The notes beneath the pieces were generated by a model, which saw nothing but the letters and a program-made list of their open reading frames with translations, was not told the DNA's origin and did no database searches. A stretch of 64,000 nucleotides of DNA from Alphaproteobacteria bacterium (GTDB lineage Bacteria > Pseudomonadota > Alphaproteobacteria > Rs-D84), in contig WRCA01000002.1 in NCBI GenBank assembly GCA_009784275.1, positions 68,783 through 132,782 of the forward strand. The letters are read 5' to 3'. The position numbers and the translations under genes are program-made. Positions 30,346 to 39,863 of this stretch are shown here, one piece after another. Position 1 is the stretch's first letter, and each line of letters starts with the position of its first letter.

Positions 30346-30373
30346 AAAAATCGCCGCAAACGCGGCGATTTTT
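30345..30373 (+). terminator. Rho-independent terminator after rpsK
   Basis: aaaaaatcgccgcaaacgcggcgattttt. Confidence 0.85.
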
Positions 30374-30400
30374 ATTTTATTTTTTTAGCCAGTCAGCCAA

Positions 30401-30428
30401 TTGACAAACCAAAACTTTTCACTATAAT
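30401..30428 (+). promoter_or_regulatory. Consensus promoter for 30435 ORF
   Basis: TTGACA - 16 bp - TATAAT ending 6 nt before the ATG at 30435. Confidence 0.65.
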
Positions 30429-30434
30429 TATTAT

Positions 30435-31022
30435 ATGAAAAGAGACCTGGCTTATCGCAAACGGCAGATTGACCGTGAAAAATCGGCACTTTCTTTCAGT
30501 GCTGTGCAAAATTATGCACTTCGTTTCCGCAACCATACACTGGAATTTTTCAAAAAATCCAAAAAACGCCTCGATGAGGCTTTGAGTTGGAAAAAGCTGG
30601 ATTTCGGCGCCCGTCTGGCCCACTTTAAAAAATTGGTAAAACACGCTTTGTCATTTGGTGGTAATGATTATTACGATGTAGAGGTAAAGCACGCCAAGAG
30701 TGATGGAAATACCCTGGGCTCTACGGATGGCAATTGCATCAATGTTTATGACAAGCTGCTGAAAAACGATAATTATGACAAAGTGGTAGAGGTCGCGAAA
30801 CATGAGCCTGCGCACGTGTTTCAAATTCGAAAAGGCGATACGACCTTGTCGCATTCCACGGTAATAAGAAGTATTGAAAATTATGTTCATGCGCAAGAAG
30901 ATTATGCTTACTACCGCGCGAATCCGATAGAACAAGAAGCGTGGAAAATCGGTCAGACCGCCAGCGAGAATTTCACAAAGACCTTGCGCGATATGCAGAA
31001 CGGCTATCAGCGCGCAGCGTAA
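30435..31022 (+). CDS. Hypothetical protein with HEPAH (HExxH-like) motif
   Basis: 195 aa; VVEVAKHEPAHVFQI and EDYAYYRANPIEQEAWKIG; strong promoter upstream. Confidence 0.6.
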   Translation: MKRDLAYRKRQIDREKSALSFSAVQNYALRFRNHTLEFFKKSKKRLDEALSWKKLDFGARLAHFKKLVKHALSFGGNDYYDVEVKHAKSDGNTLGSTDGNCINVYDKLLKNDNYDKVVEVAKHEPAHVFQIRKGDTTLSHSTVIRSIENYVHAQEDYAYYRANPIEQEAWKIGQTASENFTKTLRDMQNGYQRAA

Positions 31023-32024
31023 TTATCCCTTTCTTTTGATCCCGACTTTCTTTTCTAGCGCGGCAAAGCGCAAACTTTTACGCAGGTTATAGCTGCATGC
31101 GAATTTCAGCCAACCCCAAGCAGCCGCCACCTGTCCGCGATTTTGATCCGTCGGTTGCGGCGATTCCCAAATCTTTACAATTCTCTTTTTTAAATTTTTC
31201 AGTGTGCGCTTGCGCAGCAGTATGAAATCCGGAAAATGCCGATATCCAACGAAATCGACACCTGTCGCGGTCGGGATGATTTCTGCCTTGGAAAATTCCA
31301 GTTGCAGTTGCGATGATAAAAATTCGCGAATTTTGTCGCGTATCGCGCGCAGCTGCGCCTTGTCATTTGAAAATAAACAAAAGTCATCGCTGTATCGCAG
31401 ATAGTCGCGAACACGCAGTTCCCGCTTTATAAATATATCCAATTCATGAAGATACAGATTGCCCATCCATTGACTGCAGAGGTTGCCGATGGGCAGGTTT
31501 TTTCCACCGTCGGCGGAATAAATAATATCGCGGAATATTTCCAGCAAGCGCGCATCAGGCGTGGTCTTTCGCACGATTTCAAACATGATGTCATGATCGA
31601 TCGAAGGATAGAATTTCCTGATATCGCATTTTAATACATACTTGTTGCGGCGCATGAAACACATGGCGCGCCGGCTGGCCGAATGCAGGCCTCGGCCGGT
31701 GATGCATGCATAAGAATCCTTGATAAACATCCGTTCCCATTGCGGAGCAAAAATATTCATCAATGCGTGATGCAGCAGCCGATCGGGCGCGAATGGCAGA
31801 ATATAAATAGTTCGGCGCTTTGGATCCGTGATTTCCATTGTGCGATAGGTCGAGGTGCGAAATTCGCCCGCCATAACGGTCTGACGCAGGTTTTCCAGGT
31901 TTGTTTCAGAGTTTTTAAGGAAGCACGCGATTTCAGGTTTATTGCGCCGTCCGCGCACTGCCTTTTTCAGTGCAAGGGCAAAATTTTCGGGGGATATAAA
32001 GTCAGAGAACAGGGCAGGGCTCAT
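31023..32024 (-). CDS. DGR-type reverse transcriptase
   Basis: YVLKCDIRKFYPSIDHD, LPIGNLCSQWMGNLYLHELD (DGR [ILV]GxxxSQ motif), RDYLRYSDDFCLFSND (YxDD); adjacent TR/VR pair. Confidence 0.92.
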   Translation of the reverse strand: MSPALFSDFISPENFALALKKAVRGRRNKPEIACFLKNSETNLENLRQTVMAGEFRTSTYRTMEITDPKRRTIYILPFAPDRLLHHALMNIFAPQWERMFIKDSYACITGRGLHSASRRAMCFMRRNKYVLKCDIRKFYPSIDHDIMFEIVRKTTPDARLLEIFRDIIYSADGGKNLPIGNLCSQWMGNLYLHELDIFIKRELRVRDYLRYSDDFCLFSNDKAQLRAIRDKIREFLSSQLQLEFSKAEIIPTATGVDFVGYRHFPDFILLRKRTLKNLKKRIVKIWESPQPTDQNRGQVAAAWGWLKFACSYNLRKSLRFAALEKKVGIKRKG

Positions 32025-32320
32025 ACAAAAGTAAAATATTTATCCACTTTGATGATGTTGGTGCGGAATGGGATTTTATCGCCGTATTTATCGCATTGGT
32101 CCATCAGAACTCCGCTGCCGGTGAAAAGAATGCACATCTCACCATCCATCTCGAATTGCAGGTGCAGGCACATTTCGCCCTCATTTTTTTTAGAAGCGAT
32201 AATCTTGTGCCCGCGCACGGTAATCGGCTTGTTCAGAACTTCCTCTATGCGGCATTTTCTGCCATCCAGCGGGGGTTTAATATCAGCAAAGTCGGAAAAA
32301 GAATGGATTTCTTCGGGCAT
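32021..32320 (-). CDS. Small DGR-associated accessory protein (99 aa), function unknown
   Basis: ATGA stop/start overlap with the RT; lies between TR and RT on the same strand. Confidence 0.7.
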   Translation of the reverse strand: MPEEIHSFSDFADIKPPLDGRKCRIEEVLNKPITVRGHKIIASKKNEGEMCLHLQFEMDGEMCILFTGSGVLMDQCDKYGDKIPFRTNIIKVDKYFTFV

Positions 32321-32529
32321 GTAATGTCCTTTATTTATTTGCGATTAACTCCATCCTGCCCCCGTTTTCGGGGGCGGGACAGGAGCGTTTTTATCCCGGT
32401 TATTGTATTTTCCCCGCAAAGCAGAGAAGGTTGCATATCCAGCCTTGTGTGTCGGCTACATAATGGCTTGTCATTCCGGCGAAGGCCGGAACCATGTCCC
32501 CCGGGTTGGCAAAACCGAATATCAAGTAT

Positions 32530-32642
32530 CGAAAGCCCGCGCAGCGTCCTCCGTGTTCTCGGAATTATGGCCCGCGTTGTTCGCAAGGTTGTTACCAGCG
32601 TTCTCTCGCGCGTCATCCTGGGAGTCCCAGGTATCGCCGAGC
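32530..32642 (-). repeat. DGR template repeat (TR)
   Basis: 113 bp on minus strand (gctcggcgatacctggg...gctttcg), AAC-rich, identical to VR except 9 positions, all adenine in TR. Confidence 0.93.
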
Positions 32643-32849
32643 CAAAGAACAGGACCAAACGGCACGGTGCATACAGATATACCACCCGCAAATCCATTGG
32701 ATTCGCAAATATATTGTTAGTTCTTTCCCTGGAAAACTTCAACGAATTATATACTCGTATATAAGGTTTTTGTTTGTCAAATTGTGATTATTGTTGACGA
32801 AATTAATTTTTGCTCTATTTTTACAGTAACAGCAAAAATGGAGACAAGC

Positions 32850-33716
32850 ATGTCTGAAAAAGAGTTTATCATACCGGCAATTCAAGAGCTAACAAAAAAA
32901 GAAAATAAAGACGTAAGTCAGCATTGGAAGGACATATATGGAAACATCGGCGCCGAGGCGATAAAGAAGGGCATAACGGATTTTTCGCCAAAAAACCGCC
33001 AAAAATATCGCGACATTCGGCATACAAAAATTAATGAAGAAAAAATCGAGCTGATTGGCGATGGAACATTTTCCACCCCCGATCGTTCGATGGAAGAAAT
33101 TGTATCGAAAAAAGTAGAATTTTTGGATGGCCAAATAGCTGAATTGACCGAACAAAGAAACAGCCTGGCGCAAAAATACAATATCAAAAAAATCCCTGTT
33201 TTCTCTGGCTTGGAAAATCACATTATGGATGAATTCGTAGAAAACGCGCTGGCCAAAGGTTGGGCTTGGCTGTACCAGGATGGCGTCAAAGCCCGCGGCC
33301 AAACGAAGATCTATTTTGATGCGGGCTATTGGGCAGCATTCTGCGACAGAATGAGCATTGTCGTTAATTGCAACCCGGATGAAATCCAAGCCATCGCGGT
33401 TACCAACCATAGCGTGGATTATGCAATTGATACGAAAGAAAACCTGAATAGATACATGAGAGAGGTAAAACTTAAAGAGTTCAAGTTCGAGGAGAAGGAC
33501 GGCAAAGACAGCAAACACGGATATGGCTTTGTGAAGATAAGGGGGCATTGGTATGGAATAGTAAAGCTCGGCGATACCTGGGACTCCCAGGATGACGCGC
33601 GAGAGAACGCTGGTTACAACCTTGCGAACTACGCGGGCCGTTATTCCGGGTCCGCGGGGGACGCTGCGCGGGCTTTCGGCCTTGTGTATCAATCGCTGAC
33701 CCAAAACAGAAAATAA
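32850..33716 (+). CDS. DGR target (diversified) protein, VR at C-terminus
   Basis: ATG 32850 with ggaga RBS (track start 32784); C-terminal ...GDTWDSQDDARENAGYNLANYAGRYSGSAGDAARAFGLVYQ is encoded by VR. Confidence 0.85.
   Translation: MSEKEFIIPAIQELTKKENKDVSQHWKDIYGNIGAEAIKKGITDFSPKNRQKYRDIRHTKINEEKIELIGDGTFSTPDRSMEEIVSKKVEFLDGQIAELTEQRNSLAQKYNIKKIPVFSGLENHIMDEFVENALAKGWAWLYQDGVKARGQTKIYFDAGYWAAFCDRMSIVVNCNPDEIQAIAVTNHSVDYAIDTKENLNRYMREVKLKEFKFEEKDGKDSKHGYGFVKIRGHWYGIVKLGDTWDSQDDARENAGYNLANYAGRYSGSAGDAARAFGLVYQSLTQNRK
33566..33678 (+). repeat. DGR variable repeat (VR)
   Basis: 113 bp matching RC of 32530-32642; substitutions at 33615, 33630, 33640, 33642, 33649, 33651, 33652, 33654, 33658 all correspond to TR adenines. 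Confidence 0.93.
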
Positions 33717-33735
33717 TACGGAAAACGGAAAACTT

Positions 33736-33900
33736 GCCCCCCTTGTTAAAGGGGGGCGATTTTTATTAACGAGCCGCAGGCGAGTTTAGAAAAATCGGGG
33801 GGATTATTGTGTAATGTCTGGAATTAAAAAAGTAATCCCCCCAGAGTTGCTAGGCAACAAGTTGCCAAGCCAACTCTTCCCCTCTTTAACAAGAGGGGCT
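33736..33900. repeat. Palindromic interspersed repeat (cccccc ttgttaaa gggggg ... aagagggg)
   Basis: tgccccccttgttaaaggggggcg hairpin; gctaggcaacaagttgccaagc motif shared with 3.5 kb; similar copy at 34273-34432. Confidence 0.7.
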
Positions 33901-34239
33901 ATTCAATCCAAGTTCTTCGCAAATTTTCCAAAGGACCCCGTCAATATTTTTCAGAACCTCATCATTACCAAATCTTAAAATTCTATATCCTTGTGCTATC
34001 AGATATTTTGTTCTTTCTTCATCAGCATCGATGCCAGCTTCTGTATAATGCTGACTGCCATCACATTCAATTATAAATCTGCGTCGTCGCCAGATCAGAT
34101 CCGCAATGTATTTGTCGTCTATTACGAACTGTCTTTGAAATTTGCCAATTTTTGCATCATGAAGTGCGTAATAAAGTTTATTTTCAGCCTTCGTAGGATT
34201 TTTTCTATTCCAACGTGCAAGTTCGGTAAGTACAGACAT
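33886..34239 (-). CDS. DUF559-like (Vsr-related) endonuclease
   Basis: KNPTKAENKLYYAL, FQRQFVIDDKYIADLIWRRRRFIIECDGSQH, RILRFGNDEVLKNIDGVL. Confidence 0.85.
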   Translation of the reverse strand: MSVLTELARWNRKNPTKAENKLYYALHDAKIGKFQRQFVIDDKYIADLIWRRRRFIIECDGSQHYTEAGIDADEERTKYLIAQGYRILRFGNDEVLKNIDGVLWKICEELGLNSPSC

Positions 34240-34272
34240 GTCATGATTATACTTATTGTCAAAAGGGAGTCA

Positions 34273-34432
34273 AGTGCCCCTCTTGTTAAAGAGGGGCAGA
34301 ATTGGTTTACGAGCAAAGCGAGTTAGCAACTCTGGGGAGATGATTGTTTTGAACATTACACAGCATCCCCCCTAATTTTCGGCAAGCAAGCTTGCTCGAA
34401 AATTATCCCCCCTTTAACAAGGGGGGCACAAA
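34273..34432. repeat. Palindromic interspersed repeat, second copy
   Basis: gcccctcttgttaaagaggggc ... ccccctttaacaaggggggc; ggtttacgagcaaagcgagttagcaactc as at 3.4 kb. Confidence 0.7.
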
Positions 34433-34447
34433 ATGGAGTTTTAAATT

Positions 34448-34870
34448 TTAACGATGCTTGCGATGTTTTTTTGAAAGCTTATACTGTTCTTTTTCTACAT
34501 TCCACCTTCTTTGGACAGACCACTTTGCGCAATTGCAGGTTCCTTCCCAAAAATTTTTTTCTTTGATTTTTTCAGATTCTTCGATTTTTTGCTTACATAA
34601 GTCAAATTCCTGCGAAATCATTTCGTCCGTATACCATTTTGCGCACCAATGTTCGTCTTTACGCAGGTCTTCCAGCATATTCAGTTTGTTAGAATAAAAG
34701 ATCGATGCCTCGTTCGCCAGCTTATATTCTTGTTTGTTAGACAGATAGATTTTTTTCGGCCAATAATCATTCGGAATAAATAAGAGGGTATAATAATCCA
34801 ACAGCCAAATACCCGTGCCCGCCAGCACGATAGAGCCACAAATAATAAGCTTTTTCCATTTGGATTTCAT
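34448..34870 (-). CDS. Hypothetical membrane-anchored protein
   Basis: N-terminal TM LIICGSIVLAGTGIWLLDYYTLLFI; consensus promoter TTGACA-16-TATAAT on minus strand just upstream. Confidence 0.55.
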   Translation of the reverse strand: MKSKWKKLIICGSIVLAGTGIWLLDYYTLLFIPNDYWPKKIYLSNKQEYKLANEASIFYSNKLNMLEDLRKDEHWCAKWYTDEMISQEFDLCKQKIEESEKIKEKNFWEGTCNCAKWSVQRRWNVEKEQYKLSKKHRKHR

Positions 34871-35039
34871 TATAATTCCCTTGACAAATTAATTATAGCT
34901 TAAATTATTATTTTGTCAAGGTATTTTGCGGTTATAATAGGGTGCTTTTAAAAAATCCAAAAATCGCGCAAATCCGCGTTTAAAACAAATTGAACTGTCT
35001 GATAGAATTATGCTAGGTTATGATAAATCCTGAAATAAC

Positions 35040-35831
35040 ATGCCCAATAAAAAAATAGAAGTCTTCGAAGCCGGAAATGTAAAGCTTGTAAATTGCTGTA
35101 TGTTCAGCAATGCTGGCTTTGGTTCCGTGAAAGATAAAGGCGTAAATGCGATCATAACTGATTTCCCTTATGGAACATTAAACAAAAGAAACGAATGGGA
35201 CAAGGTTATAGATTACGATAAGTTTTGGATCGAAGCAAAACGGGTTGGCAAAGATAAAATGCCCATAATTTCAACCGCACAGATGCCTTTTACCGCTGTT
35301 CTGGTATCGACGAACTATAAAGATTTCAAATACACGCTTGTTTGGGAAAAATCAAAGGCAACGGGTTATTTAAATGCCAAGAAACAGCCAATGAGGGCGC
35401 ACGAAGACATTGTTGTGTTCTATAAAAAACAATGCAAGTACAACCCGCAAATGACAAAGGGCGAACCGTACAACAAAGGCTGTGCCGTTCGCGATACATT
35501 CGCATATGGAAAACAAGAAAAAGCAGTATTGGTAAAGAATGATACTGGTGACAGGTATCCTCGTTCCGTTCAGTATTTCGTTACGGCGGAAAGCGAAGGC
35601 AAACTGCATCCCACGCAAAAACCAGTTACCTTGTTCGAATGGCTGATAAAGACTTATACCGATAAGAATGATTTGGTATTGGATCCTTGTTTCGGCAGCG
35701 GAACGACCGCCATTGCTGCCATCAGGACCGGACGGAAATTTATAGGATTTGAAAAAGATCCTGTTTATTTCAAGGCAGCAAAAAAACGGATTAAAGAAGA
35801 ATTAAAAGCAAACTTATTATTCGATTTATAA
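35040..35831 (+). CDS. DNA methyltransferase (N6-adenine/N4-cytosine type)
   Basis: ITDFPYGT (DPPY-like), HPTQKPVTLFEWLIKTYT, VLDPCFGSGTTAIAAIRTGRKFIGFEKD. Confidence 0.88.
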   Translation: MPNKKIEVFEAGNVKLVNCCMFSNAGFGSVKDKGVNAIITDFPYGTLNKRNEWDKVIDYDKFWIEAKRVGKDKMPIISTAQMPFTAVLVSTNYKDFKYTLVWEKSKATGYLNAKKQPMRAHEDIVVFYKKQCKYNPQMTKGEPYNKGCAVRDTFAYGKQEKAVLVKNDTGDRYPRSVQYFVTAESEGKLHPTQKPVTLFEWLIKTYTDKNDLVLDPCFGSGTTAIAAIRTGRKFIGFEKDPVYFKAAKKRIKEELKANLLFDL

Positions 35832-36506
35832 TATTTCTATAATAAACGAAACGAACTTCTTTATAACATCATCGTCTAATTCGTGTTTCACTTTGTAAAG
35901 CGGTTTCGCGGAACTTCTTTTATTTTTCAGAAAGAAAAAGATTTTCGATTCGATTCCATTCGGGTCGGACGTCAGGTGTTTCGTGTCGTCCCAGAAATCT
36001 GCTTCGTATACGAATAGTGTTTTATCTTTTGCCGCGTTTTGTCCGGCAAAGACAATGTATTTGACATCTGCGGGATCTGTTCCATGCTGTTTCAGCGACT
36101 GTGCTATTTTTCTGAAATCTGCCAACGCTCTGTCGTAATAGCATGAATCAAGATAGGTTTTGTTTTCGATAAATGCTATTCTTTTTTTATTAGAAAAAAT
36201 ATGCCGGTCGACTTGAATTTGATTGAATTCAACATCACGGCCTTTGTAATGAATTGTTTTCGAAAGGCGATCCCGGCCGCCGACTATGGATTCAATATTG
36301 GCGCCAGGAATTTCAGTATTTATAGTATCAAAAATGTTTTGTAATAATGATTCAACCAGATTACCCGCCGCATCGCGAATAACGCCTTCAGTCTGGGCGG
36401 TTTCTGCCAACGACGCAAGTTGCGCTTGCTCTCTATCATAACATTTATGGATATTTGTGATAACTTTGCCAGTAATTCTATCAAGTTCTGATTGCGGTAA
36501 ATTCAA
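35826..36506 (-). CDS. Putative type II restriction endonuclease partner
   Basis: Tail-to-tail with the MTase; VDRHIFSNKKRIAFIENKTYLDSCYYDRALADF resembles a PD-(D/E)xK-type core (E-x-K). Confidence 0.55.
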   Translation of the reverse strand: MNLPQSELDRITGKVITNIHKCYDREQAQLASLAETAQTEGVIRDAAGNLVESLLQNIFDTINTEIPGANIESIVGGRDRLSKTIHYKGRDVEFNQIQVDRHIFSNKKRIAFIENKTYLDSCYYDRALADFRKIAQSLKQHGTDPADVKYIVFAGQNAAKDKTLFVYEADFWDDTKHLTSDPNGIESKIFFFLKNKRSSAKPLYKVKHELDDDVIKKFVSFIIEIL

Positions 36507-36569
36507 AATAAAACCCCTATATTTTCATAGGAGTTTATTACTTTTCAGCGATTCGTTCCAGTGTGCGTA

Positions 36570-37166
36570 TTAGTATTTTATTTTGCTGTGTTCCCTCATG
36601 ATTTTAATTTGTCCTGGGAATGGGTATTCGCGGAAGTATTTTTTTCTGTCTTCTTCCGAATAGCGGCTTTGTTTCGGTACAAATCCCGCTGGTAATTTCG
36701 ACTGGAATGTTTGGACTTCGTTCCAGCCGCCTTTTAGTCCAATTTGATAAGGATAGAATTCCTTTGGCACACCGTTTATAAATATTGCCAAGAATGGCCG
36801 CTTGCCCGCGTAAGTAATACGATGTATTCCGTCTATCAAAAGCGGCTGGCCATCGATAACTTCTATGATCGGTGGCGTAAAGGTATACGGGACTTCGTTA
36901 TCAGCAACCGAATAAGTTATAAATCCTGAATTCGACAGGATATTTACGCCATGTTTGGAAAATGATTTATCCAGCGTTTTGATGATATCCAGCTGGTCTT
37001 GCAGGACAAAGCGCTGGGTCGGGACTATGTCGCTTTTATTCGCGAACTCAAGCGTTATTTTCGCGCCGTCATAAGGGTTAACATACGGAAGTCCGCGCAG
37101 TGTGGCATTTTTTATAACTCCCATCAAATCATCGGTTCCATGCAGCTTGTGTTCAGATATTTTCAT
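36570..37166 (-). CDS. Hypothetical protein with ParB/sulfiredoxin-like DGIHR motif
   Basis: PPIIEVIDGQPLLIDGIHRITYAGKRP. Confidence 0.5.
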   Translation of the reverse strand: MKISEHKLHGTDDLMGVIKNATLRGLPYVNPYDGAKITLEFANKSDIVPTQRFVLQDQLDIIKTLDKSFSKHGVNILSNSGFITYSVADNEVPYTFTPPIIEVIDGQPLLIDGIHRITYAGKRPFLAIFINGVPKEFYPYQIGLKGGWNEVQTFQSKLPAGFVPKQSRYSEEDRKKYFREYPFPGQIKIMREHSKIKY

Positions 37167-37230
37167 TGCGCCAACCTTTGCTTGCGTGCTACATTCCCCT
37201 TGGTCGGGAACTTACAACAAAGGAAAATTT

Positions 37231-37764
37231 ATGTCAACAAAAATGTACTTTGATATGGATGGGGTTTTGGCGGATTTCGACGCCAGCGCTTGTAAGATTC
37301 TGGATCGCAAGGATTTGAATTATCGAACCGAAGTTATGGCCGGCGATGCGCTTGAAGCAAAGAAAAAGCGCTGGCTGGATATTGAACAAACGCCTGGATT
37401 TTGGGAAAACTTGCAGCCCATCGTTGGCGTGGAATCCATGCTGGCGGCGGCATCCAAGTTGAGTGAAATTTTTGTTTTATCAACGGCGCCATCCGCAAAG
37501 CGTTTCATAAAAGGCGATGAATATGTCCAGCATATAATTGATGCTAAAAAGGCCTGGATTGCCCGGTATTTCGGCAAGTTCTTTGCACCGGAACATGTGA
37601 TAATAGTTCGCGATTCAAAGGAAAAAATAGCGAAATCCGGTCCTGATAGCTTATTGATCGATGATCGCGCAGAAAATATATCTGATTGGATTAACGCGGG
37701 TGGACGCGGCATAGTTTTTAAATCGCCATCCCAGGTTATAAAAGATATGTCTGGCGAATTTTAG
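37231..37764 (+). CDS. 5'(3')-deoxyribonucleotidase-like HAD protein
   Basis: MYFDMDGVLADFDASACKIL; VLSTAPSAK; LLIDDRAENI; start set to ATG 37231. Confidence 0.75.
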   Translation: MSTKMYFDMDGVLADFDASACKILDRKDLNYRTEVMAGDALEAKKKRWLDIEQTPGFWENLQPIVGVESMLAAASKLSEIFVLSTAPSAKRFIKGDEYVQHIIDAKKAWIARYFGKFFAPEHVIIVRDSKEKIAKSGPDSLLIDDRAENISDWINAGGRGIVFKSPSQVIKDMSGEF

Positions 37765-37770
37765 CGGTTT

Positions 37771-38439
37771 TTACTTATACTGTTTCCAGTACGCGTTCCA
37801 GATTTGTGATGCCAATCTGCTCGCATACCTGCGCACGCGAAATGCGGCATCATATGCAACATCCATATCCATATCGCGCATGTCGCAACATACAAAATCG
37901 GTCTGCACCGCTTTCCCGTTTCGTTGGAATTTATTATGTATCGTTGCATTGACGCTGATCCAGATAGAAAGGTCTTCGCCGTCTTTTTCTATCGGTGTTC
38001 CATTTCTGCCCTTTTGGATATCACGACGTTTTATAAAGTTGCTGGCTGTTTTTGTCTTTATGCTGTTAATATCTATCTCGGTATCGGGTACTTTGCGGTC
38101 CCCGAATATTAATTTGGCCTGATTGGCAAGGATCGGTACGGAACTTACAAATTTTGATGTAATTCTCTCTGGATTTCCGATTCTTTGGCCCTTATAGGAA
38201 TAGATTGTATTTCCAGCGGCGTCAGTTACACCATCGCCAGAGATTGCAATGTGGGTTGAACTCTGCGTTGACCAGTCTTCCTTTGGGGTCCAAAAAGCAT
38301 CCTCTTCCACTGGATCATAGGCATGACTGCCCCATCTCTGTATGGGCCCGTTCTTTTCAAACCTTCTGGCTCTTTTGGCTTCTTCTACCTGCTTTCGGTC
38401 TATTTTCGCAGCTATTTTTTTTCTGTTAAGCTTTGCCAT
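37771..38439 (-). CDS. Hypothetical protein
   Basis: 222 aa ORF; upstream minus-strand TTGACA-16-TATAAT near 38.47-38.50 kb. Confidence 0.55.
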   Translation of the reverse strand: MAKLNRKKIAAKIDRKQVEEAKRARRFEKNGPIQRWGSHAYDPVEEDAFWTPKEDWSTQSSTHIAISGDGVTDAAGNTIYSYKGQRIGNPERITSKFVSSVPILANQAKLIFGDRKVPDTEIDINSIKTKTASNFIKRRDIQKGRNGTPIEKDGEDLSIWISVNATIHNKFQRNGKAVQTDFVCCDMRDMDMDVAYDAAFRVRRYASRLASQIWNAYWKQYK

Positions 38440-38575
38440 TCTTTTATCCCTTTATTTCAATGTGAAATAATTATAGTATAAAATTGTTATTTGTCAAGTA
38501 TTTCTATAATGGGGGCAGGGCTTAAAAATCCGCGCCATGGCGCGTCAGAACGGCTTCCCTCATATTAATAAAACA

Positions 38576-38603
38576 TTGACAAATAGCAATATTGTTGTAT
38601 AAT
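38576..38603 (+). promoter_or_regulatory. Consensus promoter
   Basis: TTGACA - 16 bp - TATAAT. Confidence 0.6.
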
Positions 38604-38630
38604 GACATATATATTACCACATTGGGATCC

Positions 38631-39197
38631 ATGATGCCAACTATTGAGATTAATGGAATAAAAAATTATAAATTAGACGGTTCCACTTTAAAGGTGGATC
38701 TTGCTTACGATCAGATTCAGCCTCTTATAGAACAATTACAGCAAACAAAACGGATCAATAACAGCTCCAAGCATATAATTATTACATCTGAAGGTGTTAA
38801 TATATCGCAATATAAGACCTTTGATATCCCCAGTTTTGATAAGTTTCATGAATGGTTCGCGCAGATGAATGCGAACTTTATTGTGCAATACAAGGAATAT
38901 GGGTTGGCCATTGAAAGATTAGAAATCAAAACCGCCTGTAACAAGCCAAAGGCTGGCTATGACAAATTTACGACAGAAGCGCCGATAGAAGACAAAGCAA
39001 ATTTGTGGAATGATAAGTATCAGTGGTACAAAGTTACCTTTACTGATGGCTCCAGTTCTGGTTGGTTGTGCAAGGGGGTATATACTTCTGGGCGTGTGGC
39101 TGTAAAGGAAATAGGTTGCCTGTTGCACAATTTGGCTAAACTTTCAGGTTTTAATAATATATTAGTGGCCCGCAAACAACATCAGAAAATGCAGTGA
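38631..39197 (+). CDS. Hypothetical protein
   Basis: Starts at ATG 38631 downstream of promoter; track start 38592 overlaps the -10; C-terminal half resembles 39214..39762. Confidence 0.55.
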   Translation: MMPTIEINGIKNYKLDGSTLKVDLAYDQIQPLIEQLQQTKRINNSSKHIIITSEGVNISQYKTFDIPSFDKFHEWFAQMNANFIVQYKEYGLAIERLEIKTACNKPKAGYDKFTTEAPIEDKANLWNDKYQWYKVTFTDGSSSGWLCKGVYTSGRVAVKEIGCLLHNLAKLSGFNNILVARKQHQKMQ

Positions 39198-39213
39198 GAA
39201 ATTCAAGTGACCT

Positions 39214-39762
39214 GTGACAAAAGGGACGATTGTGGTGGAATTTAATGATTCAAAAGGTCTTACCGCGCATTTTGTTCATGGCGGAATAAATCTTGCCGAA
39301 GATTTTCCGTTGTTTCATTTAATTGTGACAGCGTGGGGTTACACTTTAGTCAATGAAACTGGGTACGAAACTGATAAAGACGGGGAGCGCGGCCAGGTTG
39401 GATGGTTGAAACAATACAGTAAAAGAAATATTGACGCAGGTGGTGTAGCGGTGAAACGGGTTATTGTTGTCGCCCACAGCAATACATGCAATTATGATTT
39501 GGAGACTTATACGTATGGCTGGAAGCCCGTGCAAGATATAGAAAATAAAGAAAATAATACAAAACGGGCCTATCTGATAGAATTTATGGATGGAATCAGC
39601 ACCGACTGGATGTGTTGGGATAAAGATGATTCGTTAGAGGACACAGTCTGGAAGTCGGTTGATGTGGTGTATGATTTGGCCAAATATTTTCTCCGTCGGG
39701 TAAAGGCGCAGGAAGCTTACGAGAGAAGCAGTGCCGTAATACAGCGTCAGAAAACGCAATAA
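39214..39762 (+). CDS. Hypothetical protein, divergent paralogue of preceding ORF
   Basis: YLIEFMDGISTDWMCW... vs YKVTFTDGSSSGWLCK... Confidence 0.5.
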   Translation: MTKGTIVVEFNDSKGLTAHFVHGGINLAEDFPLFHLIVTAWGYTLVNETGYETDKDGERGQVGWLKQYSKRNIDAGGVAVKRVIVVAHSNTCNYDLETYTYGWKPVQDIENKENNTKRAYLIEFMDGISTDWMCWDKDDSLEDTVWKSVDVVYDLAKYFLRRVKAQEAYERSSAVIQRQKTQ

Positions 39763-39863
39763 AATCCCGTATCAGCGGGTTTTTTCTTGACTTTTTACAT
39801 ATTACTGCTTAAAATCCCCAGGCCTTACGGTGAAAATAATAAACTAAACCACAGGAGCCTTTG

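Follow-up and report, generated by a model that had tools for sequence, protein, structure and literature searches.

A chromosomal diversity-generating retroelement of a reduced-genome Rs-D84 alphaproteobacterium, with a predicted OB-like accessory protein, a structured RNA beside its template and a probable helix-borne variable region

In the diversity-generating retroelement (DGR) of BPP-1, arranged as mtd-avd-TR-brt, a structured spacer 3ʹ of the template repeat (TR) recruits bRT-Avd and primes cDNA synthesis (PMC12875486). The known DGR accessory proteins are Avd, HRDC and MSL (PMC10053308). The C-type lectin (C-Lec) has been described as a conserved scaffold on which DGRs can accommodate massive variation, and in a survey of 36,611 targets the annotated variable repeats (VRs) were systematically C-Lec (PMC8144416). 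The DGR of the archaeal virus ANMV-1 (KP703175) likewise has a C-Lec-type target; an Avd ORF is marked in its published figure (PMC4372165), and AJP62065.1, encoded immediately downstream of the reverse transcriptase (RT), is only a "hypothetical protein" in the record.

Here we examined a window, by which we mean the whole 64,000-nucleotide stretch of contig WRCA01000002.1 that was analysed. The initial annotation had placed a complete DGR in it, and this is supported by the TR/VR pair, a DGR-type RT, an accessory ORF and a VR within an open target ORF (Table 1). We read the locus as a chromosomal DGR of a reduced-genome Rs-D84 alphaproteobacterium, belonging to a lineage that diversifies the face of a helix, with Avd replaced by an OB-like accessory and with a structured RNA; the probability we give to this reading as a whole is roughly 0.8. 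With BPP-1 the locus shares a DGR RT with the SQ motif, adenine-specific TR-to-VR changes, a VR at the C-terminus of the target and a structured RNA 3ʹ of TR. It differs in that the accessory, a four-helix Avd in BPP-1, is predicted to be OB-like and lies between the TR RNA and the RT, that the target is inverted relative to TR-RT, and that the variable domain is of helix type (from the model of a relative, and by extension probably in the window) instead of C-Lec. The variable domain, the accessory and the template RNA set this lineage apart from known DGRs, and these points go beyond the initial annotation.

Table 1. Features of the DGR locus (positions within the window)
Feature	Positions	Strand	Remarks
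DGR reverse transcriptase (RT)	31023-32024	minus	333 aa; LPIGNLCSQW and YSDD
Accessory protein	32021-32320	minus	99 aa; 4-bp overlap with RT start
Conserved structured RNA (core)	32390-32518	minus	directly 3ʹ of TR; R1 match 70.9 bits, E 8e-14
P1 closing helix, 3ʹ arm CCGGG	32395-32399	minus	pairs with 32501-32505
P1 closing helix, 5ʹ arm CCCGG	32501-32505	minus	pairs with 32395-32399
Template repeat (TR)	32530-32642	minus	113 bp; 27 adenines
Target protein gene	32838-33716	plus	292 aa; divergent from TR-accessory-RT unit
Variable repeat (VR)	33566-33678	plus	113 bp; 3ʹ end of target gene
Putative variable helix	33594-33656	plus	about residues 253-273
Stem-loop with T-tract	33734-33759	plus	11-bp stem; downstream of VR

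Repeat pair, reverse transcriptase and activity

The reverse-complement alignment of TR and VR had 113 columns and nine mismatches, as had been reported, and all nine fell on a TR adenine: A>T at 33615, 33630, 33642 and 33651, A>G at 33640, 33649, 33654 and 33658, and A>C at 33652. For nine random mismatches all to hit A, with 27 A in the 113-base TR, P = 7.9e-7. The likeness ends sharply on both sides, and TR and VR are identical at all non-A sites; their 3ʹ end, which was looked at for an IMH, is GC-rich and identical, followed by divergence. No further TR/VR copies beyond these two were found in the genome, which is 890 kb in size and 96% complete. The stem-loop downstream of VR is terminator-like; a role as a DGR stem-loop is equally conceivable.

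The RT ORF carries both the LPIGNLCSQW and the YSDD motif, and TR, accessory and RT all lie on the minus strand with the target on the plus strand, which agrees with the earlier statement that TR is on the RT-coding strand. The RT profile matched PHROG 1423 at 3e-98, and its top match in the PDB was chain 8ub7 (1e-66, 228 bits), the best group II RT reaching 111 bits. We take 8ub7 to be the bRT of BPP-1, from its length of 328 aa, which is equal to that of brt. The phylogeny named as a check in the initial annotation included the DGR RTs of BPP-1, ANMV-1 and Ideonella together with the window RT, with two group II RTs as the root and no retron sequence, and it put all DGR RTs, including that of BPP-1, together. 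In a larger tree of 160 RTs, the window RT fell inside a clade of 45 leaves with a local support of 0.988. The RT is of the true DGR type, and the best match to 8ub7 together with the RT tree rules out the readings as a group II, retron or defence RT. Partial matches to group II, retron and DRT models (NCBIfam, PADLOC) might speak for an RT of one of these classes accompanied by an incidental repeat, but the NCBIfam scores were far under the cut-offs (107 vs 300 bits for group II, 68 vs 235 for retron St85) and 8ub7 was the best solved chain by a wide margin. Moreover, adenine-biased TR/VR pairs recur across the RT clade, which refutes this reading and leaves it a negligible probability.

The initial annotation had expected population variation to be confined to TR adenines, and this was borne out in relatives. 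The loci L064 and L067, whose RTs are identical at 311 of 312 residues and whose 148-bp TRs are identical, have VRs with 20 differences, of which 19 fall on TR-A, which corresponds to 61% of the A sites vs 0.9% of the other bases. Where two VRs occur under one TR, all differences were at TR-A (19/19 in L072 and 16/16 in L079). Since the VRs of near-identical relatives differ almost only at TR adenines, these relatives have been recently active. For the window, a decayed DGR, in which VR was rewritten formerly and the present copy no longer works, is improbable. It would fit with the changed share of only 9 of the 27 TR adenines, with the crowded island in which the locus lies and with a REP-like palindrome at 32469-32491 inside the RNA. 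However, the RT, accessory and target ORFs are open, the catalytic motif of the RT is intact and the RNA helix P1 is preserved; the perfect TR/VR match at non-A sites points to recent homing or conversion, and close relatives are active.

Variable domain in the RT clade and in the window target

To each DGR a helix or C-Lec class was assigned by sequence motif. Inside the 45-member clade, all 35 resolvable VRs were of helix type (the other ten members were without a detected pair), and the templates were of the kind WVFNNTNSSAANCANNCANNCANNVRNNADFR or Cys-poor variants of it. Outside the clade, 88 of 89 resolvable DGRs were C-Lec by the motif GGNWNN..NCGSR.RNANN, and the remaining one, L111, which had been flagged "other", was C-Lec-like by eye. 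Asn codons of the templates recurred at lag 4 (z 11.5) and lag 8 (z 8.4) in the helix class, and at lag 2 (z 7.0) in the C-Lec class. Most targets of the clade have a hydrophobic signal-like N-terminus and a Cys-rich variable domain, and several outgroup targets carry an Mtd second domain.

An AlphaFold2 model of the relative L070 (28 sequences) consisted of a five-strand sheet followed by helices 111-128 and 130-137, with a domain pLDDT of 95-98. Its variable residues were located in helix 111-128, with the template Asn positions to one side (resultant 0.73). For this relative, the model shows that the residues which the lineage diversifies lie along a single face of a C-terminal alpha-helix and not in a C-type lectin. 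Alternatively, the locus could be an ordinary DGR with a very divergent C-type lectin target, in which the four-residue spacing is merely a loop. Roux et al. 2021 (PMC8144416), who found annotated VRs to be systematically C-Lec, anticipated that uncharacterised VRs would prove to be novel C-Lec variants, and some weak resemblance can be seen by eye at the W, NC and FR positions. Against this stand the sheet and C-terminal helices of the L070 model, the template periodicity of 4 in the helix clade vs 2 in C-Lec DGRs, and the searches: Foldseek with the L070 model gave nothing significant in the PDB or viral models, with no C-Lec among the PDB matches listed, and 28 helix-class members had no Pfam match save one stray hit. 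We regard the divergent lectin as having a small chance of being correct. If the helix-face lineage is true, the C-Lec scaffold is replaceable and the lineage constitutes a natural helical binding library.

For the window target, the start GTG 32784 is to be replaced by the probable start ATG 32838, which gives the length in Table 1. VR lies at the C-terminus of the open ORF, with 12 residues between its end and the stop codon. No homologues of the target were found in viral contigs or phages, and in 100 relative genomes the only matches were to its own C-terminus and TR. The domain has no cysteines. The window TR spells [EN]AG[NN]LA[NN]AG[HN]SE[NT], a five-pair rhythm as in the helix class, and the residues changed by VR (N260Y, N265Y, H268R, N269Y, E271G, N272S, T273A and E274G) fall within the putative helix and just past its end.

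The Asn codons of the window template peaked at lags 4 and 8, with P ~0.04 each for this one sequence. A template-level HMM of the Cys class, whose discrimination comes partly from the Asn pattern itself, scored the window TR at 12.7 bits, compared with 6.2 for the best of 100 shuffles, 4.8 for the best C-Lec template and 29.6 for the relative L123. At the level of VR, an HMM did not discriminate the window-type VR, and the profiles of window-type VR domains, compared with those of the Cys-rich helix class, gave a weak or no match, which was not significant. The window RT nests among RTs with Cys-class targets. Since the window target is without homologues, the assignment of its helix draws on the template periodicity, the weak TR-level profile match and the RT phylogeny, and taken together these make a variable helix likely.

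Two further targets were noticed among the relatives. A helix-type target in L048 (9844-11871) has long collagen-like GXY repeats, which suggests surface display. In L045 (8918-10696, genome G058) there is a separate, more distant DGR, with its VR close to the N-terminal end of a 669-aa ORF; this ORF looks AAA-ATPase-like, its start and domain calls being provisional.

Accessory protein and structured RNA

Of 81 cellular loci (the window included), 72 had a homologue of the accessory beside the RT, as did 71 of 80 viral loci, and in three loci (L102, L113 and L114) the RT and the accessory domain are fused in one ORF. In nearly all C-Lec DGRs the accessory is downstream of the RT, and in nearly all members of the helix clade it is upstream. 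It matched nothing in Pfam, NCBIfam or PADLOC; none of 18 family members had a Pfam match, HRDC (PF00570) and MutS-like (PF01624) domains included. The unnamed PHROG 19665 was weakly matched by 42 of 113 family members. The accessory profile matched AJP62065.1 of ANMV-1 at 2e-35 and failed to match the Avd of BPP-1 or Ideonella, and within 31023-33716 there was no other ORF that could be a candidate for an Avd-type protein. The AlphaFold2 model of the accessory is beta-rich (pLDDT 91.7), with the strand order b-b-b-a-b-b, as in OB folds. Foldseek matches to this model were not significant (best E 0.1) and had several OB-containing proteins among them. On the basis of its strand order, the accessory is predicted to be an OB-like beta-barrel. 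A description of this family was not found in the open-access papers that were searched.

The accessory family extends to DGRs of other design. ANMV-1 shares it, with an RT 33% identical to that of the window and the reversed RT-accessory order. Cellular and phage DGRs of Treponema, Gastranaerophilales, Elusimicrobia and IMG/VR contigs, with RTs 40-50% identical, share it as well but differ in their C-Lec VR motif, in the RT-accessory order and, in several targets, in an Mtd-like second domain.

The RNA 3ʹ of TR was described by a covariance model, R1, trained on 21 sequences of which the window is one. All 21 sequences pair in the closing helix P1 of this RNA, one position of which shows four pair types; the covariation score was 0.271 vs 0.095 for shuffled alignments, and only helix 1 of the given structure contributes to it. 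The window genome has a single R1 copy. A scan of the other 99 loci gave 16 matches, all in the helix clade and some outside the training set, and none in 77 loci outside that clade, among them the Treponema, Gastranaerophilales, Elusimicrobia and IMG/VR DGRs. In 81 genomes, R1 matched in 15, nearly all with a DGR RT. The model matched neither BPP-1 nor ANMV-1, and the RNA had no match in Rfam. The first match beyond the helix clade was in L060 (37.5 bits), right after a C-Lec-like TR. This locus, from another family of Rs-D84 (G074), shares with the window the accessory upstream of the RT and the R1 RNA following TR, and differs in its C-Lec-like TR and in its RT, which is outside the helix clade. 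By its sequence, L060 (625-887) looks like an intermediate, in which gene order and RNA preceded the change of target.

With moderate confidence we propose two steps: in an order-level ancestor the accessory came to lie upstream of the RT and a structured template RNA of its own was gained, and in a family-level ancestor the unmatched sheet-plus-helix domain then took the place of C-Lec, so that adenine mutagenesis would randomise a single exposed helix face. The lineage would run without Avd, its OB-like accessory being ancestral to a large branch of phage, archaeal-virus and bacterial DGRs.

TR, structured RNA, accessory and RT are probably transcribed leftwards as one RNA. As the structured spacer of BPP-1 sits in the same place, we infer that the RNA 3ʹ of TR would recruit the RT together with the OB-like accessory, a presumed stand-in for Avd, and would prime cDNA synthesis over TR. 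The RT would then misincorporate opposite TR adenines, and the mutated cDNA would replace VR at the 3ʹ end of the divergent target gene. Together with the RNA, the accessory offers a testable Avd-independent DGR, which bears on the role of DGR accessory proteins.

Some additional features of these RNAs were observed. Within the structured RNA of the window, 32469-32491 form the perfect REP-like palindrome TTCCGGCCTTCGCCGGAATGACA, which also occurs upstream of the accessory in G001 (L026). In the genome G022 the TR-flanking RNA occurs three times, two of the copies being distant from the RT (L229, 2404-2558, and L230, 5049-5176), one after a helix-type TR-like sequence and the other after a different Asn-rich sequence.

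Host, target function and genomic setting

Named relatives found in the RT-profile scan are MAGs with the titles Rickettsiales, Alphaproteobacteria and Candidatus Enterousia; their gut samples include rumen, deer and horse. Enterousia belongs to the order Rs-D84 and has reduced genomes and a partner-dependent lifestyle (PMC12306168). The window is assigned to Rs-D84 from these relatives and from its genome size, and the sample codes of several close relatives may point to a termite-gut habitat.

The likely purpose of the diversification is tunable binding. Because most targets of the relatives look secreted, they are likely to recognise partner cells or phages at the surface. For hosts that are uncultured and believed to live at the expense of other cells (PMC12306168), a diversified binder is plausible as a tool for partner recognition. 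The target could instead be a cytosolic sensor or defence protein, an intracellular binder tuned for example against phage, and not a surface receptor. The window target, in which no signal peptide is evident by eye, looks cytoplasmic from its sequence; its counterpart in the same genus (L026) likewise lacks an evident signal peptide, both are Cys-poor, and methyltransferase, REase-like and DUF559 genes are found in the same island. However, signal-like N-termini and Cys-rich variable domains prevail in the clade, and the window target matches no PADLOC model; on the whole, we consider the cytosolic role rather unlikely.

The DGR is located between rpsK and rpoA, in a 9.5-kb island (30346-39860) that splits the alpha ribosomal-protein operon and also holds a DNA methylase, a weakly REase-like gene, and DUF559, ParB-CE and NT5C genes. 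At the same site, the relatives G001, G003, G007, G002 and G006 have 0.1-2.8 kb of varied content, with the DGR elsewhere, so that cargo seems to accumulate at the rpsK-rpoA site. The methylase at 35040-36506 is of the N6/N4 type, and the gene convergent with it is weakly similar to type II restriction enzymes (E 1.6e-4); the two are a possible restriction-modification pair.
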